A stretch of DNA of 64,000 nucleotides from Phosphitispora fastidiosa (GTDB lineage Bacteria; Bacillota; Thermincolia; Thermincolales; UBA2595), in contig NZ_JAHHUL010000015.1 in NCBI RefSeq assembly GCF_019008365.1, forward strand, positions 1-64,000. Reading direction: 5' to 3'. The number at the start of each line of letters is the position of its first letter. Positions within the stretch are counted from its first letter, which is position 1. Below, piece after piece: positions 29,112 through 51,587 of this stretch. The notes below the pieces were generated by a model, which was not told where the DNA came from, made no database searches, and was given only the letters and a program-made list of their open reading frames with translations. A program made the position numbers and the translations under genes.

Positions 29112-30536
29112 TTATATTCCCCTCCTTACCGTCCTTACAACATTACCGCCTGGACCGGTTATCAGGATTTCCAGAGGCATTTTTCCGATCTGGTGAGTTG
29201 CACAGGATAGGCAGGGGTCATAACAACGGATAGCCATTTCTACCTGATTAAGTAGAGGTTCCTCTACTTTATTGTCTTTCAGGACCATTTTGGCCACTTC
29301 ATTAACCGCCCTGTCCATTGCTGCATAGTTATGGGCGGTAGAGACGATAATATTTACCTTTTCCAGCTTACCCATATCATCAGCCTGATAATGGTGTATC
29401 AGGGTCCCCCGGGGAGCTTCAATAACACCAATCCCTTCACCTGCCTGCCTGGCAACAGTTACCCGGACATCCTTGCTGATTATATCATCATCATGAAGAA
29501 GTTCCTTTGCCCTTTCCACAGCATGCAGCAGTTCAATAAGCCTTGCATAGTGGTAATAGAGACTGTCATGGACAGGCTGGCCATTGCCGAGCTGTTTAAA
29601 TTCCTTCAGCTCAATATTGGCAAGAGGAGTGGAGATTCTATCGGCTACATTAAGCCTGGCGAGAGGAGCAACCCTGTATACGCCTTCAGGCCAGCCAAGT
29701 TTTTTGTAGTAGGGGAACTTAAGATAAGTCCAGTCCTCGGTGTGTTCAGCGATATGGTCCAGGTAGTCTGCCGGTGCGAATTCGTCCAGAATTTTGCCGT
29801 TCTCGTCATTCAGCCTTAACACTCCATCATACAGCTCCAGGGCGCCGTCTTTGACCAGACCCATATATTTTGTTCTAAATGATGCAAATCCGGGAATCAG
29901 GGCGCTGTACTTTTCATTAATCCCTTTCACGGCATTTAATGCCAGTTTTGCCAGTTCAAGGCCTTCATCCATTTCCTTAATCATTATGTATCTGTCTTCA
30001 TGGGAAAGGGGTTTACTCATCCCTCCGGGAATAGCCGCGACCGGGTGAATTGAACGACCGCCCACTTTTTCAATTGAGGCCTGTCCTATCTGACGGAGTC
30101 TGATCGCCTTTTTGCCAAGCTCCGGGTTGGCGTTTAAAACGCCGATAACACTCCTCTGTTCCGGCCCGGCATCAAGACCGAACAGAAGGTCAGGGGCGGC
30201 CAGATAGAAGAAATGCAGGGCGTGTGAGTGGATAATCTGGGACATATGCATGAGTTCCCGCAGTTTTTTGGCCGCCGGGGGGATATCTACCCCAAAAAGG
30301 CTGTCACAGGCCTTAGCTGAGGCCAGGTGGTGGCTTACCGGACAAATACCGCAGATTCTGGTGGTGATGACAGGCATTTCCCACACCATCCGGCCTTCAC
30401 AGAACTTCTCAAAACCGCGGAATTCCTGAACATGAAAATGTGATTCCGTAACATTACCGGCATCGTCAAGGTGGATGGTAACTTTTCCGTGACCTTCAAC
30501 TTTGGTTACCGGATCAATGGTTATTGTTTTAGCCAT
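29112..30536 (-). CDS. [NiFe]-hydrogenase large subunit, group 3 (MvhA/HoxH-like)
   Basis: A 474-residue catalytic subunit binding the NiFe(CN)2CO centre. L1 motif [11 protein letters not shown] (about 60-70) and L2 motif DPCLSCATH (about 440-448) supply the four Cys ligands. A 26-residue tail beginning QIGKMPLEI follows the last His and should be removed by the maturation protease. The compact size and motif wording fit cytoplasmic bidirectional/group 3 enzymes. The ATG at 30536 is 8 bases after AGGGGG; the GTG three codons earlier lies in that site. Overlaps the small subunit by 8 bp. Confidence 0.94.
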
Positions 30537-31437
30537 TTGTGCCACCCCCTTTTTTTACATTTGTGGGTACTATCGAGACGGGTAAGGAATACCGGTAACC
30601 GGTGCCCACTATATCTTCCATAAACATCAGACCACCTGCCGGAAGAACGGATGCCAGGGCATTTACTATTTTGGCGCCCTGTTCCAAGGCACCCGGTGTT
30701 GGCCCCATACATCCCCGGCAGGGCATGTTGCCCCTGAGACAACGGGCGTGGCAGCCTTCGCGGGTGGCTGGGCCCATACACATGACACCCTGCTCCAGGA
30801 AGCATTTTTCGGGATCAATAGTCTCCAGTTCCATGACAGAGGTAACTGAGTCAGTAATAAATTCCCGTTTGGGAGCCAGCATTTCGGAATGGCTGCGCCC
30901 ACATTCATCACAGAGACTCTTTTGGGGTAATACAGGTTCCGTGCCGTTGACCAGTGCAAGGAGGACATCTTTTATCATTGAGGGCAGAGGAGGGCAGCCC
31001 GGAATATAATAGTCGACGGTAACATATTTGTTGATTGGCCCTACGTCTTCCAGGAGGTCGGGGAGACTTGGGGAACCAGGTATTTTACCGTCCGTTACAC
31101 TGGGAGCCTCCTCGTAAGCCCGGCTGAGGACTTCAGCTTTGCTATAAAGGTTTCTGATTCCGGCGATTCCGCCGAAGCACGCACAAGTGCCCAGAGCTAC
31201 CAGCACCTTAGATTTTTCCCGGATTTTCTTTAGCACTTCAATGTTATGGCTGTTGGAAACACAGCCTTCAACAATTCCAACCGTGACTTCGGGGATTTCT
31301 TTGACATCCTGAAGGGGAGATGCTTTAAGGTCTACAACTTCCAGAAGGTCAAGCAGTTCTTCATTAAGGTCCAGAAGTGAAATGTGGCAGCCTGAACAAC
31401 CCTGAAGCCAGACGGAAGCTGCTGTTACTTTCCCCAT
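30529..31437 (-). CDS. [NiFe]-hydrogenase small subunit, group 3 (MvhG-like)
   Basis: A 302-residue Fe-S electron-transfer subunit without a Tat signal, so cytoplasmic. LQGCSGCH (about 11-18), [14 protein letters not shown] (about 83-90) and YIPGCPP (about 143-149) bind the proximal cluster. [10 protein letters not shown] and the Cys-rich [11 protein letters not shown] ... CHARC ... CRGCMG region bind the medial and distal clusters, as in MvhG and F420-type hydrogenases. The start overlaps the stop of the upstream HdrA-MvhD-like gene (TAATG). Confidence 0.94.
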
Positions 31438-33050
31438 TAGTTTCCACCTCCGTTATTTTTAATCTCCTCGACCAGGGTTTGAACAGTATGGACACAGATA
31501 TTTTCTTTTCCCTTGAGACCCTCAACAATACGCAGGCTCTCAGAATCAATTCCCCTGCTCCTCAGGATTTCGCGGAAGAGGTTGGCGCGCCGGTCCAAGT
31601 CGGTATTTCCGACGATATTGCGACAGTCGGTATCGGCACATTTACAGATCACGATTCCCTGAAATCCATGCCGGTAGGCATCAAGAATCAGCTGGGTGTC
31701 AATATTGCCGCCACATCTGATGCCCAGTGGCATTACATTGATATCATACTCTAGGCCGGCGATACCGGCCAGGTCCAGCGCCTGATATCCACAGCCCTCA
31801 CAAAGAAATGCCAGTATCTTGGGCCCGCTGTTTTCTTTGCGGCCAGCCAATAATTCAATGGCTTTTGTGAGGTACTTCTGAGGGTAGGTCAGCAGGTCTC
31901 TGGCCCCGGTGGGGCAGGAGGTAACACAGTTGCCGCAGCCCTTACATCTCTGTTCATCTATTATAGATATGTTTTTATGGGGATCGATGCTGGAGGCTTT
32001 AAACATACAGGTTTTCACACAGGCGCCGCAGCCGCTGCATAGTTCTTCATTAATTTCGGAAACCTGTATCCGGTAACTGATCTCTCTTTTTTCCAGGAAG
32101 GAGGTGACGGCAAAGGCCACCGAGTCACTCAGGGCCACAATATAGGAAATATCCAGCTCTTCATCATCAGGGAGCAGGAAAATTCCCTTTTCATAAGTGA
32201 ATACCTGCAGGGTATCTGGATTGACCGGTTTGAAAAGGCCGGCATCATCTACATCAATGTGGACCAGTGGGCGCAGAGACCGGGTTGTTTCAGGGTCGGC
32301 AGTATTTGCCAGAATAATACTACCAACAGTAATATCATTAGTTACACCATTAGTTGTAATATTCAGGGTGAACCTCCCCGGATAACCGTAAATGTCATTA
32401 ATCTGTGTATTCAGCAGAAATCTGGTCATTGGGTTCATTTCAATATATGTAATTACAGAGGCGGTTTTTTCCTGGCGCTCTTTTCCTTTAAATTTCCGGA
32501 ACCTGTCAGCCGTGTCAATGATATACACCTTAAAATTACGCTCCAGAAGCCGCTGTGCGGCCAGCATTGCTGCCGGAGTCGCTCCTATGAGGGCAACAGC
32601 CGGGTGGGGCGCAATTTGCCGTGTTTTGATGGGGTGCGAATAGCGTACCTTTTCAATAGCAACCTCCACCAGAATTCTTGCCTTTTCAGTTGCTTGCTGC
32701 GGTTGGCCCGGGTGAGCCAGGGCTACCTGTTCCTTAATATTGGCAAAACTTATTTTGCTAATATTAATACCTGTAGACTCAAGCTGGTTTACCACAAAAT
32801 CGGCGCTCTTCCTGTTTGAGTATTTCATTGGAGAATCTCCGGCAAGTACGACCGCATCAAAGATCGTTTCATTGACTTGGGCCAGGATAACCCTAAGTCC
32901 TTCAGGTGTAAAGAAATCATCAACAATGAAGGTATGGTACTCCTGACTGAAGTGCCTGGCCAGGTGGTCAATATCGACGACTTTATCGGTAACTCCGCCT
33001 GACCGGGAGAAAAATAAACCTATTTTCATCCCCTCTAACGCCCCTTTCAT
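31437..33050 (-). CDS. HdrA-like / MvhD fusion, electron-transfer partner of the hydrogenase
   Basis: A 537-residue protein. Residues 1-140 show no familiar domain. About 149-180 is a Rossmann-like segment ([23 protein letters not shown] shape) like the FAD site of HdrA but with a degenerate glycine motif. Two [4Fe-4S] ferredoxin motifs follow ([11 protein letters not shown] about 338-348, [11 protein letters not shown] about 369-379). Residues about 410-537 are an MvhD/FrhD-like domain ([35 protein letters not shown]) expected to hold [2Fe-2S]. First gene of the hydrogenase operon. No hdrB or hdrC is nearby. The start may be the ATG at 33029. Confidence 0.85.
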
Positions 33051-45426: not shown

Positions 45427-46329
45427 TTAAATTTTGGGTACTGTTTTAGGCATAGTATAAATGGTATCATCAAAACCAACTAACTTTAAGAGACGTAGAA
45501 TTTGCGTATTAACAAGGTTTTTAGGTAACAAGCGGTTAATCTTTCCACCATTTACGATACGGACAATTTGCATTGACTTCAACATTTCAAGAAGGGAAGT
45601 ACCTGTAGGTGAATTGCTTTTCCTTTTGCCAGGTAAAATTAATGGCTCTGTTTCTTCTTTTAACTTTTGCCTTACCCGGCGTTCCAAAAGGGCATATATA
45701 AGTAAAGCCATAAGGAACACAAAACTTAAAGCTAATACGCGTTCTCGATTTTTCACATAGATGCCGTCAACAAATACAGGATCCTTCAGGAATCTAAACC
45801 TAACTTCCACTGCCGTCTGCTCTTTATACTCTTTTAAAATATCAATAGCTGACAGTTCTTCTTCTTTTAAGACATTGGTCATTAAAACGAAGGTACCGGC
45901 CTTGGCTCGCAAATTAGATACGGTTTGTTCACTGGGACTTTGAATTTCTATGTTTAACCGCCAAGTTGTCTCTGTCTCCGGTACTGCGCCCTTTTTGGGT
46001 CGACCTGCTTTTCTTTTGATGGTTACTATTTCTTCTGCTATCCCGTTTATACTATGCAGTATGCGTTTGTGTCCGCTGATAAAAAGCTCCAGTTCTTTTT
46101 CAGCGTCGGCGCGGCAATAAAAAGTCCTTTTGCCTAACTCCAAACAATCTTTTTCCAGTTCCATTCGTTCTTTTTCAATGTGTCTGGCAATGGTCTTTTC
46201 TTTTCTGGCATCAAGTGCAGTCGACTGGATGACCAAGCACCGGTAATTACTTCCGTCAATTTCTCTGATGGTGCTTTGGCAGCGATATTGGGAGGCATTT
46301 TTCTTATTGCTGAAAGTACCGATTTCCAA
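45427..46329 (-). pseudogene. IS1634-type transposase, C-terminal half
   Basis: A 300-codon open frame encoding only the later part of an IS4-superfamily (IS1634 group) transposase: VIQSTALDARKEKTIARHIEKE, AGRPKKG, then YKEQTAVEVRFRFLKDPVF with the catalytic Glu of the DDE triad. The N-terminal domain and first catalytic Asp are missing; matching pieces lie just beyond 46330 but on the other strand. So this is a decayed, rearranged element, not an active gene. No terminal inverted repeats were found by eye. Confidence 0.85.
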
Positions 46330-46340
46330 CCAGTTACGCA

Positions 46341-46603
46341 GACACTACCTCGATTTCGGTTTATGGTGAATATGACAGAGAAGGAAGTATTAATATAACC
46401 AATGGCTACAGCAAAGAACTGATTCTGCGCTAGTAACCAGAGACAATCTGAAAATCATTCAACAGCAAAATATAAAGTTTATTTCTAGACTACCAGAAAC
46501 CTTTGGTCTGGCCGAAGAAGTAAAGCAATGGTCCTGGGAACGGAACAGAAGGGCTTACCGTTTTACCGGCTGGCAGTGCGCCTTTAATAGCAGCTATGTG
46601 TGA
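46341..46603 (+). pseudogene. IS1634-type transposase, central fragments
   Basis: Translation from 46341 gives TTSISVYGEYD and ITNGYSKE, the conserved region after the N-terminal domain. It ends at TAG 46432. An overlapping frame from about 46422 then gives ALVTRDNLKIIQQQNIKF and SRLPETFGLAEEV, which belongs about 60 residues further on. Hence an internal deletion plus frameshift. Strand is opposite to the C-terminal fragment to its left. Confidence 0.75.
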
Positions 46604-46912
46604 TGAAATAGAATTGGCAAGAATTGTTGATAATATTGTTTTATGGATCCCAAACAATGCCGTGTATCACCAGGCACCTTGATTAAAGGACTTGTAATCA
46701 ATGTTCTGTCAGGCCGTAAGGCACTATACAAGGTTTTCGAATATTTTGCGGAACAAGATTTAGAAGTATTGTTTGGCTCGGGAATTGAAGCCGATGCCTT
46801 TAATGATGATGCTCTGGGCCGTGCATTGGATAAATTAGCATTCGTACACCCTAATAGGGTTTATTCAAATATAGTTTTATCTGCTATTACCAAGCATGAT
46901 ATAGATTTTAAA
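46550..46912 (+). pseudogene. IS1634-type transposase, N-terminal (DUF4277) fragment
   Basis: GLTVLPAGSAPLIAAMCDE, then a one-base loss near 46645, then DPKQCRVSPGTLIKGLVINV, GRKALYKVFEYFAEQDLEVLFG and NDDALGRALDKL, the N-terminal DUF4277 region of IS1634-group transposases. It lies downstream of the central fragments although it should precede them, so the element is scrambled. Confidence 0.75.
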
Positions 46913-47206
46913 GGAGTTAGTGGCTTTAGCGGCTACCTGCTACCAAGTGGGGTAAACTTTACAGAAGAAGACGATGGAAACTGGAGTGTGACTATAAAGT
47001 GGGATACTGTAGACAATAATGTAACGGCTGCCTGTGAAGTTTTAACTAAAAACACAGCCAGTGATTATAATCTATGGAAATGGGCTCACTTGGCAAATGG
47101 AGAGAATGTGCAAGCATGGAGCGCTTGGCAAGCCGATGGTGCACCGTTCAATCTATTTGGTCCTATAGTTGAATTTCAGAGTTTTTATTACTGGACACCC
47201 TATTAA
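46643..47206 (+). CDS. Chimeric ORF: transposase N-terminus joined to an unrelated C-terminus
   Basis: The 187-codon frame starts inside the DUF4277 fragment (to about residue 90). It continues without a stop into a Trp- and Asn-rich tail (GVNFTEEDDGNWSVTIKWDT ... AWQADGAPFNLFGP ... YYWTPY) that has no transposase resemblance and looks like the end of a secreted protein. It is probably the accidental join of an IS remnant with the 3' end of an older gene. Whether it is expressed is unknown; no ribosome-binding site is seen. Confidence 0.5.
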   Translation: MDPKQCRVSPGTLIKGLVINVLSGRKALYKVFEYFAEQDLEVLFGSGIEADAFNDDALGRALDKLAFVHPNRVYSNIVLSAITKHDIDFKGVSGFSGYLLPSGVNFTEEDDGNWSVTIKWDTVDNNVTAACEVLTKNTASDYNLWKWAHLANGENVQAWSAWQADGAPFNLFGPIVEFQSFYYWTPY

Positions 47207-49364: not shown

Positions 49365-49561
49365 AATAACCACCTTTCGCAAGTGAATATACTGTATTCA
49401 ATTAAAAGGGGAATTATACATTATTCAACAGAAATGCCATATATCCTCCTGTGGATGTGGGAATGAAGCCAGAGCGCCTGTCGGCAAAGCTTTCTGAATT
49501 AAAAGAATAGAGGTGAGGAAAGCTATCCTAAAGCTTAACATGTTACAAGGAGGATGTACAC

Positions 49562-51475
49562 GTGACCAATAAAACCAGGCACCGTTTGGATGAAAAAGTC
49601 AGTATCCATGAGTCTGTTCAGGAAATGTATCAACGATTGCATGAAGATGGGATGAGCAATACTTTCGACCGCTTTGAGCCTCAGGAAAAAATAAGGTGCA
49701 ACTTTTGCGTATCAGGAACTAGCTGCCAATTATGCACCAATGGCCCCTGCCGCATTTCAGAGAAGACCGGGGCCACTCTTGGAGTATGTGGGATAACTCC
49801 TGATGCCATGGCGATGCGGGACATGCTGCTGAGAAATGCTATGGGGGCTTCAACTTATGCCCATCATGCCTATGAGGCCTTCAGGACCTTGAAGTCCACT
49901 ATTGAAGGGAAAACCCCCTTCGGAATCACTGACAGGGAGAAGCTTTACTGGTTTGCCGGACAGTGCGGGGTTAATACAAATGGTGATCCGGGTCAGGTGG
50001 CTTTGTGGCTGTCAGATTTTCTGATGTATGAGCTTCATCGCGGATATGATGAGCCCAGCCGGATAATTGCGGCATTTGCACCTCCCGCGAGGCAGAAGGT
50101 GTGGCGGGATCTGGCTATCTATCCTGCAGGGACACTGCATGAGATTAAGGATGCTGTGGCCAGTTGTCTGACAAATGTTGACGGTGACTTTATATCACTG
50201 GCGAAGAAGGGACTCCGGCTGGGGGTAGCCACGATTTACGGAGCCCAGATAGGTCTTGAAATGGTTCAGGACATCCTTTTTGGAACTCCCATGCCTCATG
50301 AGGTGGAAGTAGACCTGGGGATTCTGGATCCGGAATATATTAACATTGTTTTTAACGGGCACGAACCATGGGTGGGGATGGCAACTTACTATGCTGCCAA
50401 AAGACCTGAGGTTCAGCAGCGTGCTAAGGACGCCGGAGCAAAAGGATTACGGATTATCGGTTCCATAGAAACAGGGCAGGAGATGCTGCAGCGGCTTCCC
50501 ATAGATGAAGTGTTCAAAGGTCTGACAGGCAACTGGCTGACAATTGAACCGGCATTGGCGACTGGGGCAATAGATGTTTTTGCCATGGATGAAAACTGTT
50601 CACCTCCTTTTTTAAAGCCTTATGAGGAAAAGTACGGCGTAACCCTTGTGAGTGTTAATGATCTGGTTCGGATTCCGGGCGTCAGCAGAAATTTTGATTA
50701 CAAACCCCCTGAAGCAGTCGGCATTGCCAATCAGTTGTTAGACCTCGCTGTGGGAAACTTTACCCGGCGTAAGGGAAAAATTACACCAAGAGTACCCCAA
50801 AAGGTTACCAAGGCAATTTCAGGGTTCTCCACAGAGGCGGTGCTTAAAGCTCTTGGGGGCACTCCCGAGCCTTTGGCCGGGGCCATAAAGGCCGGTAAGA
50901 TAAAAGGCGTGGTTGCTCTGGTAAACTGTACTACTTTATCTACCGGACCCCATGATTATATGACTGTCAACCTGGCTAAGGAGCTTATCAGAAGGGATAT
51001 TCTTATTATTAGCGGCGGATGTGGCAACCACGGTCTTGAAGTTGCCGGACTGTGCAACCTTGAAGCCATTGAGATGGCAGGACCGGGGCTTAAAGAGGTA
51101 TGCCGGAGCCTCAAAATACCACCGGTGCTTAGCTTCGGAACCTGTACCGATACGGGCAGGATTTCCATGTTAACAACAGCCCTGGCCAATCATCTGGGGA
51201 TTGACTCCGCAGATCTGCCGGCGGCTGTTACGGCACCCCAATACATGGAACAAAAGGCGACAATAGACGGCATGTTTGCTCTGGCATACGGGCTTTACAC
51301 CCATCTATCACCCACACCTCCCGTGGCGGGGGGGCCTGAGCTGGTCAAGCTTTTGACAGAAGACCTTGAGGGTCTCACGGGTGGTAAGGTAGCTCTGGGC
51401 GATGACCCGGTTGAGGTCGCCGCAGGCATAGAGGAACATATCAAGAAAAAAAGGACTAAAATCGGCCTTGATTAA
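49562..51475 (+). CDS. cooS: CooS-like CODH family protein with altered active site (CooS-V-like)
   Basis: A 637-residue CODH-scaffold protein starting at GTG after AAGGAGG. N-terminal cluster Cys are C46, C49, C55, C58, C63 and C76. The D-cluster pair is CxxC (46/49) instead of the CX7C of the C. hydrogenoformans type. C-cluster ligands aligned by eye: His267, Cys346, Cys456, Cys487 and Cys528 are kept. The usual GxCCTGNE motif reads GSIETGQE (300-307), so the Cys295-equivalent is Glu303. The KA motif (MEQKA) and His pair (101-102) remain. As I recall, a CODH lacking this Cys (CooS-V) has an Fe-S-O cluster and no CO activity. No cooC, cooF or ACS gene adjoins. Confidence 0.9.
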   Translation: MTNKTRHRLDEKVSIHESVQEMYQRLHEDGMSNTFDRFEPQEKIRCNFCVSGTSCQLCTNGPCRISEKTGATLGVCGITPDAMAMRDMLLRNAMGASTYAHHAYEAFRTLKSTIEGKTPFGITDREKLYWFAGQCGVNTNGDPGQVALWLSDFLMYELHRGYDEPSRIIAAFAPPARQKVWRDLAIYPAGTLHEIKDAVASCLTNVDGDFISLAKKGLRLGVATIYGAQIGLEMVQDILFGTPMPHEVEVDLGILDPEYINIVFNGHEPWVGMATYYAAKRPEVQQRAKDAGAKGLRIIGSIETGQEMLQRLPIDEVFKGLTGNWLTIEPALATGAIDVFAMDENCSPPFLKPYEEKYGVTLVSVNDLVRIPGVSRNFDYKPPEAVGIANQLLDLAVGNFTRRKGKITPRVPQKVTKAISGFSTEAVLKALGGTPEPLAGAIKAGKIKGVVALVNCTTLSTGPHDYMTVNLAKELIRRDILIISGGCGNHGLEVAGLCNLEAIEMAGPGLKEVCRSLKIPPVLSFGTCTDTGRISMLTTALANHLGIDSADLPAAVTAPQYMEQKATIDGMFALAYGLYTHLSPTPPVAGGPELVKLLTEDLEGLTGGKVALGDDPVEVAAGIEEHIKKKRTKIGLD

Positions 51476-51567: not shown

Positions 51568-51587
51568 ACCTGCTAGGCAGGTTTTTT
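51568..51587 (+). terminator. Second short terminator
   Basis: ACCTGC-TAG-GCAGGT followed by TTTTT, 40 bp after the cooS terminator. Confidence 0.7.

Follow-up and report, generated by a model that had tools for sequence, protein, structure and literature searches.

The window, a 64,000-nucleotide stretch of a Phosphitispora fastidiosa contig, contains an open reading frame (49562 to 51475, +) that begins with a GTG start codon and encodes a 637-amino-acid protein of the prismane/CO dehydrogenase (CODH) fold. Direct reading of the sequence places a ribosome-binding site, AAGGAGG (49547 to 49553, +), 8 nt 5′ of the start. On the 3′ side, a hairpin followed by a run of T (51568 to 51582, +) matches the consensus for a terminator and would be consistent with a single-gene transcript. 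For reasons set out below, the gene is almost certainly cooS-V, an ordinary member of an already described family (CODH clade D, structural group D-1), and we use that name throughout.

A solitary gene and its surroundings

The cooS-V gene is solitary, flanked by a divergent DegV gene and a downstream ReoY/UPF0302 gene. Family searches also recognized a PRC-barrel protein and prs nearby; rplY, pth, glmU, and mfd, in the same neighborhood, were named from their sequences. The initial annotation had stated that no cooC, cooF, CO-hydrogenase, or ACS gene is adjacent, and the family searches of the neighboring genes bore this out. Elsewhere, the same genome codes for four canonical CODHs and two hybrid cluster proteins (HCPs).

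How far this setting is shared depends on the distance of the relative. Several members of the same family retain glmU, prs, ReoY, PRC, rplY, pth, and mfd; DegV is kept beside cooS-V only in two genomes of the same genus. The glmU-prs-...-rplY-pth-mfd setting with ReoY downstream is found in close relatives only, and genome G009 has ReoY only. When 2,299 ORFs near 97 cooS-V loci were clustered, no gene family was common to more than a dozen of the loci, so no operon partner emerged, and the largest clusters were response-regulator and ABC-transporter ORFs, which lay on varying sides of the gene. In a published survey, 64% of clade D genes were without an operon partner (PMC13056359). No operator common to the cooS-V upstream regions was found either. 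In 96 upstream regions, matches to consensus sites for FNR, HcpR, Rex, PerR, CooA, NsrR, and others hardly exceeded background, and the GGAAAACTAT stretch seen upstream of cooS-V in the nearest relatives does not extend further.

Other features of the region were observed in passing. Between prs and the DegV gene, fragments of an IS1634-type transposase (45427 to 47206) lie in opposite orientations and are probably insertion remnants. The leader of the divergent DegV gene carries a near-perfect inverted repeat, AAGTGAATA-N5-TATTCAATT (49381 to 49403), present in G002 and absent in G001, which is possibly a DegV operator. About 16 kb from cooS-V, genes for an Mvh/Vhu-type [NiFe] hydrogenase (29112 to 33050, -) encode a large subunit, a small subunit, and an HdrA-like/MvhD (FlpD) fusion protein.

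Cluster ligands and family assignment

The protein carries the segment GSIETGQE (residues 300 to 307; 50459 to 50482, +), in which Glu303 (codon GAA, 50468 to 50470) aligns with the second Cys of the canonical GxCCTGNE motif and so takes the position of Cys295. This exchange had been read by eye in the initial annotation, and it stood up in alignments that included the genome's own four canonical CODH paralogs, all of which have Cys at the Glu303 position (and also Gly49 and Gln345). Ile302 and Glu303 align unambiguously with canonical CODHs, and there is thus no Cys at position 295 after all. The remaining cluster C ligands of canonical CODHs align, as had been proposed, with His267 (50360 to 50362; CooS-V His259), Cys346 (50594 to 50599 together with Asn345; CooS-V Cys338 and Asn337), Cys456 (50927 to 50929; CooS-V Cys449), Cys487 (51020 to 51022; CooS-V Cys480), and Cys528 (51143 to 51145; CooS-V Cys521, the persulfide-forming Cys), all on the + strand. 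Further along the same strand are Glu563, the counterpart of the redox-switching ligand Glu556 of CooS-V, and the acid-base Lys565 (51248 to 51256).

The N-terminal part carries the ligands of two further clusters. The CxxC pair Cys46/Cys49 (49697 to 49708, +), also correctly picked out at the start, forms with Cys55 the pattern Cys-X2-Cys-X5-Cys of a type III D-cluster, which in CooS-V (homologous Cys41) is a subunit-bridging [2Fe-2S]. Cys55, Cys58, Cys63, and Cys76 make up the B-cluster motif CX2CX4CX12C (49724 to 49789, +). Tyr99 (49856 to 49858, +), a signature of group D-1, replaces the acid-base His of true CODHs. With Glu at the Cys295 position, one His and four Cys, a Glu two residues before the Lys, and Tyr99, the protein has the full set of residues by which group D-1 is recognized. 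A catalytic Ni,Fe-CODH has five Cys and one His on cluster C and an acid-base His near the cluster; here Glu303 stands in for one of the Cys and Tyr99 for the acid-base His.

By sequence, the best match in the PDB is the CooS-V chain 7b7q (E 1e-294). A monomer model (mean pLDDT 83.7) has the CODH fold, and CooS-V is its nearest solved structure (Foldseek, TM 0.96, 68% identity). CooS-V of Carboxydothermus hydrogenoformans had been offered initially as a similar deviant; from the identity, the structural match, and a shared clade that contains only Glu295 proteins, it is the ortholog. The assignment is based on what was shown directly: ligand set, fold, and clade.

What is known of this ortholog comes from crystal structures, EPR, and CO and CO2 assays that failed (PMC9311411). 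It forms a homodimer bridged by a [2Fe-2S] cluster, with one [4Fe-4S] cluster in each subunit. The hybrid cluster of the active site, [4Fe-3S-nO], contains no Ni and rearranges as it passes from the oxidized to the reduced form and back, with a channel open solely in the reduced state (PMC9311411). Neither CO oxidation nor CO2 reduction was observed, and NO reduction was not detected (PMC9311411). The Cys-to-Glu and Gly-to-Cys exchanges described for CooS-V (PMC9311411) are the same pair seen in the window protein. The initial annotation also mentioned a reaction of CooS-V with hydroxylamine; that activity exists, but the emphasis needs correcting, as it is very poor, with a kcat of 0.13 per s and a kcat/KM of 20 per M per s, more than 20-fold below even a true CODH (PMC9311411). 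Hydroxylamine is therefore better seen as a probe than as a likely natural substrate.

Automatic annotation treats the protein as a CO dehydrogenase, which would mean a Ni,Fe enzyme that works despite having Glu at the Cys295 position. The NCBIfam model TIGR01702 does score it at 800 bits, above the cut-off of 478, in some clade B CODHs a different (second) Cys is replaced by Asp or Glu (PMC6344411), and genetics in Methanosarcina acetivorans has suggested that a D-1 protein has some part in CO oxidation (PMC6344411). Against this, the ortholog, whose ligands are identical, contains no Ni and shows no activity with CO or CO2, the C295E mutant of CODH-II loses both Ni loading and CO oxidation (PMC9311411), the acid-base His is a Tyr, and cooC is not nearby. 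We consider a working CODH very improbable. The suspicion that the name CO dehydrogenase is wrong is supported by an ortholog with identical exchanges (PMC9311411), and the automatic name is misleading. With this routine misannotation corrected, the presence of the gene should not be taken as a sign of CO oxidation or of the Wood-Ljungdahl pathway.

A strict HCP, i.e., a hydroxylamine/NO reductase, is still less probable, to the point of being hardly credible. The equivalents of Tyr99, Asn345, Glu563, and Lys565 are indeed common to the HCPs of the same genome, but the HCP family models give only about 40 bits (39.8 against 360.8; cut-offs 361 to 367), fold and clade are of the CODH type, the genome already has two HCPs, and the potentials of the ortholog are about 300 mV lower than those of HCP (PMC9311411). 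Family score and tree together exclude the window protein from the HCPs.

Conservation and unusual relatives

Of 130 aligned CooS-V rows from many Bacillota, in which some genes are counted more than once, 126 have the same residues at all 14 diagnostic positions (the D- and B-cluster Cys, His267, Glu303, Asn345, Cys346, Cys456, Cys487, Cys528, and Glu563). A pattern repeated so often makes Glu303 neither a chance event nor a sequencing error. Two of the four exceptions (L024 and L055) are cut short, and a third (L044) is without the N-terminal Cys pair in an open frame; the fourth, L014, is the only full-length row that differs at the active-site ligands. In a maximum-likelihood tree, a branch with support of 100/99, found in 200 of 200 bootstrap trees, separates all 43 Glu295 rows from the others. 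Placement on a tree had been named as a check in the initial annotation, and the window protein does lie inside this Glu295-only clade, together with C. hydrogenoformans CooS-V, represented by row L017 (genome G056), which agrees with 7B7Q wherever the two were compared by eye.

The direction of the exchange is a separate matter. The nearest relatives outside the Glu295 clade are the D-2 to D-4 types of clade D (L167, L168, and their relatives). These proteins retain Cys295 and, like the HCPs, already have Asn345, Glu563, and mostly Tyr99; the L168 type differs further in having Gly49 and thus no CxxC D-cluster. Among the relatives of L168, L221 to L235 have Cys295 together with Tyr99, Asn345, and Glu563 and so look like an intermediate state; these proteins appear to be uncharacterized. 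A tree rooted with HCPs puts the Glu295 clade inside clade D. An AU test (P = 0.43) did not reject a topology with all Cys295 CODHs in one clade, under which Glu came first, so the rooted tree does not decide which residue is ancestral, and both published scenarios (PMC9311411 and PMC10502027) stand. The Glu ligand of HCP is reported not to be at the aligned position (PMC10502027).

L014 (G003:C21:59432-61336, -) is a syntenic ortholog from the same family, full length and with an open frame, and it carries the changes C346S, C456G, C487S, C528S, N345G, and E563D, so that all four active-site Cys are gone; His267, Glu303, and all six D- and B-cluster Cys are retained. Of 177 nearly invariant sites, 25 are changed, very unevenly: the N-terminal part accounts for 2 of 61, the middle for 4 of 50, and the C-terminal part for 19 of 66 (N- versus C-terminal, Fisher P = 8e-5). 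Its end branch in the maximum-likelihood tree is 0.57, compared with about 0.01 to 0.07 in near relatives; saturation at synonymous sites prevents dating of the change. Such an uneven distribution, in a frame that has neither a stop nor a frameshift, suggests in this one genome a protein kept without its active-site cluster. Early decay of the gene is a possible alternative, as is an assembly error.

The same genome holds two ACS-type CODH copies, L143 (G003:C66) and L144 (G003:C4), that both appear broken: each has a short deletion and a premature stop, in almost identical positions, and the copies differ by two bases. These breaks may reflect either decay of the Wood-Ljungdahl pathway in G003 or an assembly artifact.

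A published statement holds that CooS-V occurs only alongside other CODHs. This is contradicted by 12 of 15 chosen CooS-V genomes, in which cooS-V is the sole gene above the NCBI CODH cut-off (G132, G113, G143, G181, G275, G386, G035, G057, G010, G303, G366, and G072; loci among L191 to L205). As the 15 were mostly picked for seeming poor in CODH homologs, the count shows that such genomes exist and gives no frequency. G181 and G366 are single-contig assemblies. At E 1e-50, four of the 12, all draft genomes (G143, G057, G010, and G072), had no HCP match. In the CooS-V-only genomes, the role of the protein cannot depend on CO metabolism. These genomes, some of them also without HCP, offer clean genetic backgrounds for studying it.

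Possible chemistry, role, and comparison with known proteins

Because every ligand is conserved, including the counterpart of Glu556 (here Glu563), we infer the same cluster and a reductase-like cycle for the window protein. By analogy with the ortholog, the active site would be a Ni-free Fe-S-O hybrid cluster on His267, Glu303, Cys346, Cys456, Cys487, Cys528, and Glu563. In a homodimer, the bridging [2Fe-2S] D-cluster and the [4Fe-4S] B-cluster of each subunit would feed electrons to it, our best guess for their source being a ferredoxin encoded elsewhere in the genome. Upon reduction, the cluster would rearrange to [4Fe-3S], a persulfide on Cys528 would become a bridging sulfide, and the channel would open; a small oxidized substrate could then bind and be reduced, returning the cluster to its oxidized, closed form. 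On this analogy, CooS-V here would be a low-potential reductase or a redox-responsive protein and not a CO dehydrogenase.

As for its role in the cell, we would guess first at the reductive disposal of a small reactive nitrogen or oxygen species during nitrosative or oxidative stress; a role against such species is also the published guess (PMC13056359). We offer it tentatively, with somewhat less than even confidence, since the one activity measured for the ortholog is very slow and NO reduction went undetected, which leaves the stress-reductase step a guess. Genetic findings on the family are unsettled, with a deletion of a family gene in Clostridium autoethanogenum giving lower biomass only (PMC13056359), as against the M. 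acetivorans hint at CO oxidation.

A rival for the role, and not for the assignment, is that of a redox sensor or regulator, with the cluster reporting redox state or reactive species and catalysis being incidental. A redox-sensing or regulatory role has been proposed for clade D (PMC13056359), and the ortholog's redox-dependent channel opening and very slow turnover would agree with it, as would the open frame in G003, with its B- and D-cluster Cys kept and active-site Cys lost, which fits a noncatalytic role there. No conserved partner or regulator gene lies near cooS-V, however, and the invariance of the active-site ligands in all other full-length orthologs fits cluster chemistry and does not tell sensing from catalysis. 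We regard a sensor as unlikely. A broader speculation, in our view also improbable, is that CooS-V, as the sole protein of the CODH family in many genomes, is a free-standing redox system and not an auxiliary of CO metabolism, with the G003 scaffold noncatalytic, perhaps regulatory, and equipped with electron-transfer clusters only.

The group to which the gene belongs is already published. Clade D group D-1, with CooS-V as its representative, was defined by Inoue et al. in 2019 (PMC6344411) and characterized in 2022; the window gene is a further member. The genomes with CooS-V as sole CODH, L014, and the tree result on Cys and Glu go slightly beyond the published CooS-V work; the side observations made in relatives are the less expected ones.

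Set beside known systems, the protein departs from the HCPs in lying far below their family cut-off and in a separate clade, even though it probably shares their type of active-site cluster and does share several active-site residues. Of the clade D proteins, the D-2 to D-4 groups differ in their Cys at position 295. With the Ni,Fe-CODHs of clades E and F (CODH-II, CODH-IV, and Desulfovibrio vulgaris CODH) it has in common the fold, the B-cluster, and five of six active-site ligands, and it differs in Glu for Cys295, Tyr for the acid-base His, Asn for Gln345, and the lack of a nearby cooC. From group D-1 (PMC6344411) no difference was found; the type III D-cluster, the His-Glu-Cys4 site, the Tyr, the Lys, and the Glu two residues before it are all alike. 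C. hydrogenoformans CooS-V itself (WP_011342982; PDB 7B7Q, 7B7T, 7B95, 7B97, and 7B9A) comes from another genus and has other neighbors than the glmU-prs ... rplY-pth-mfd locus, and it matches the window protein in the ligands at every cluster, in fold, in clade, and in being encoded by a solitary gene.
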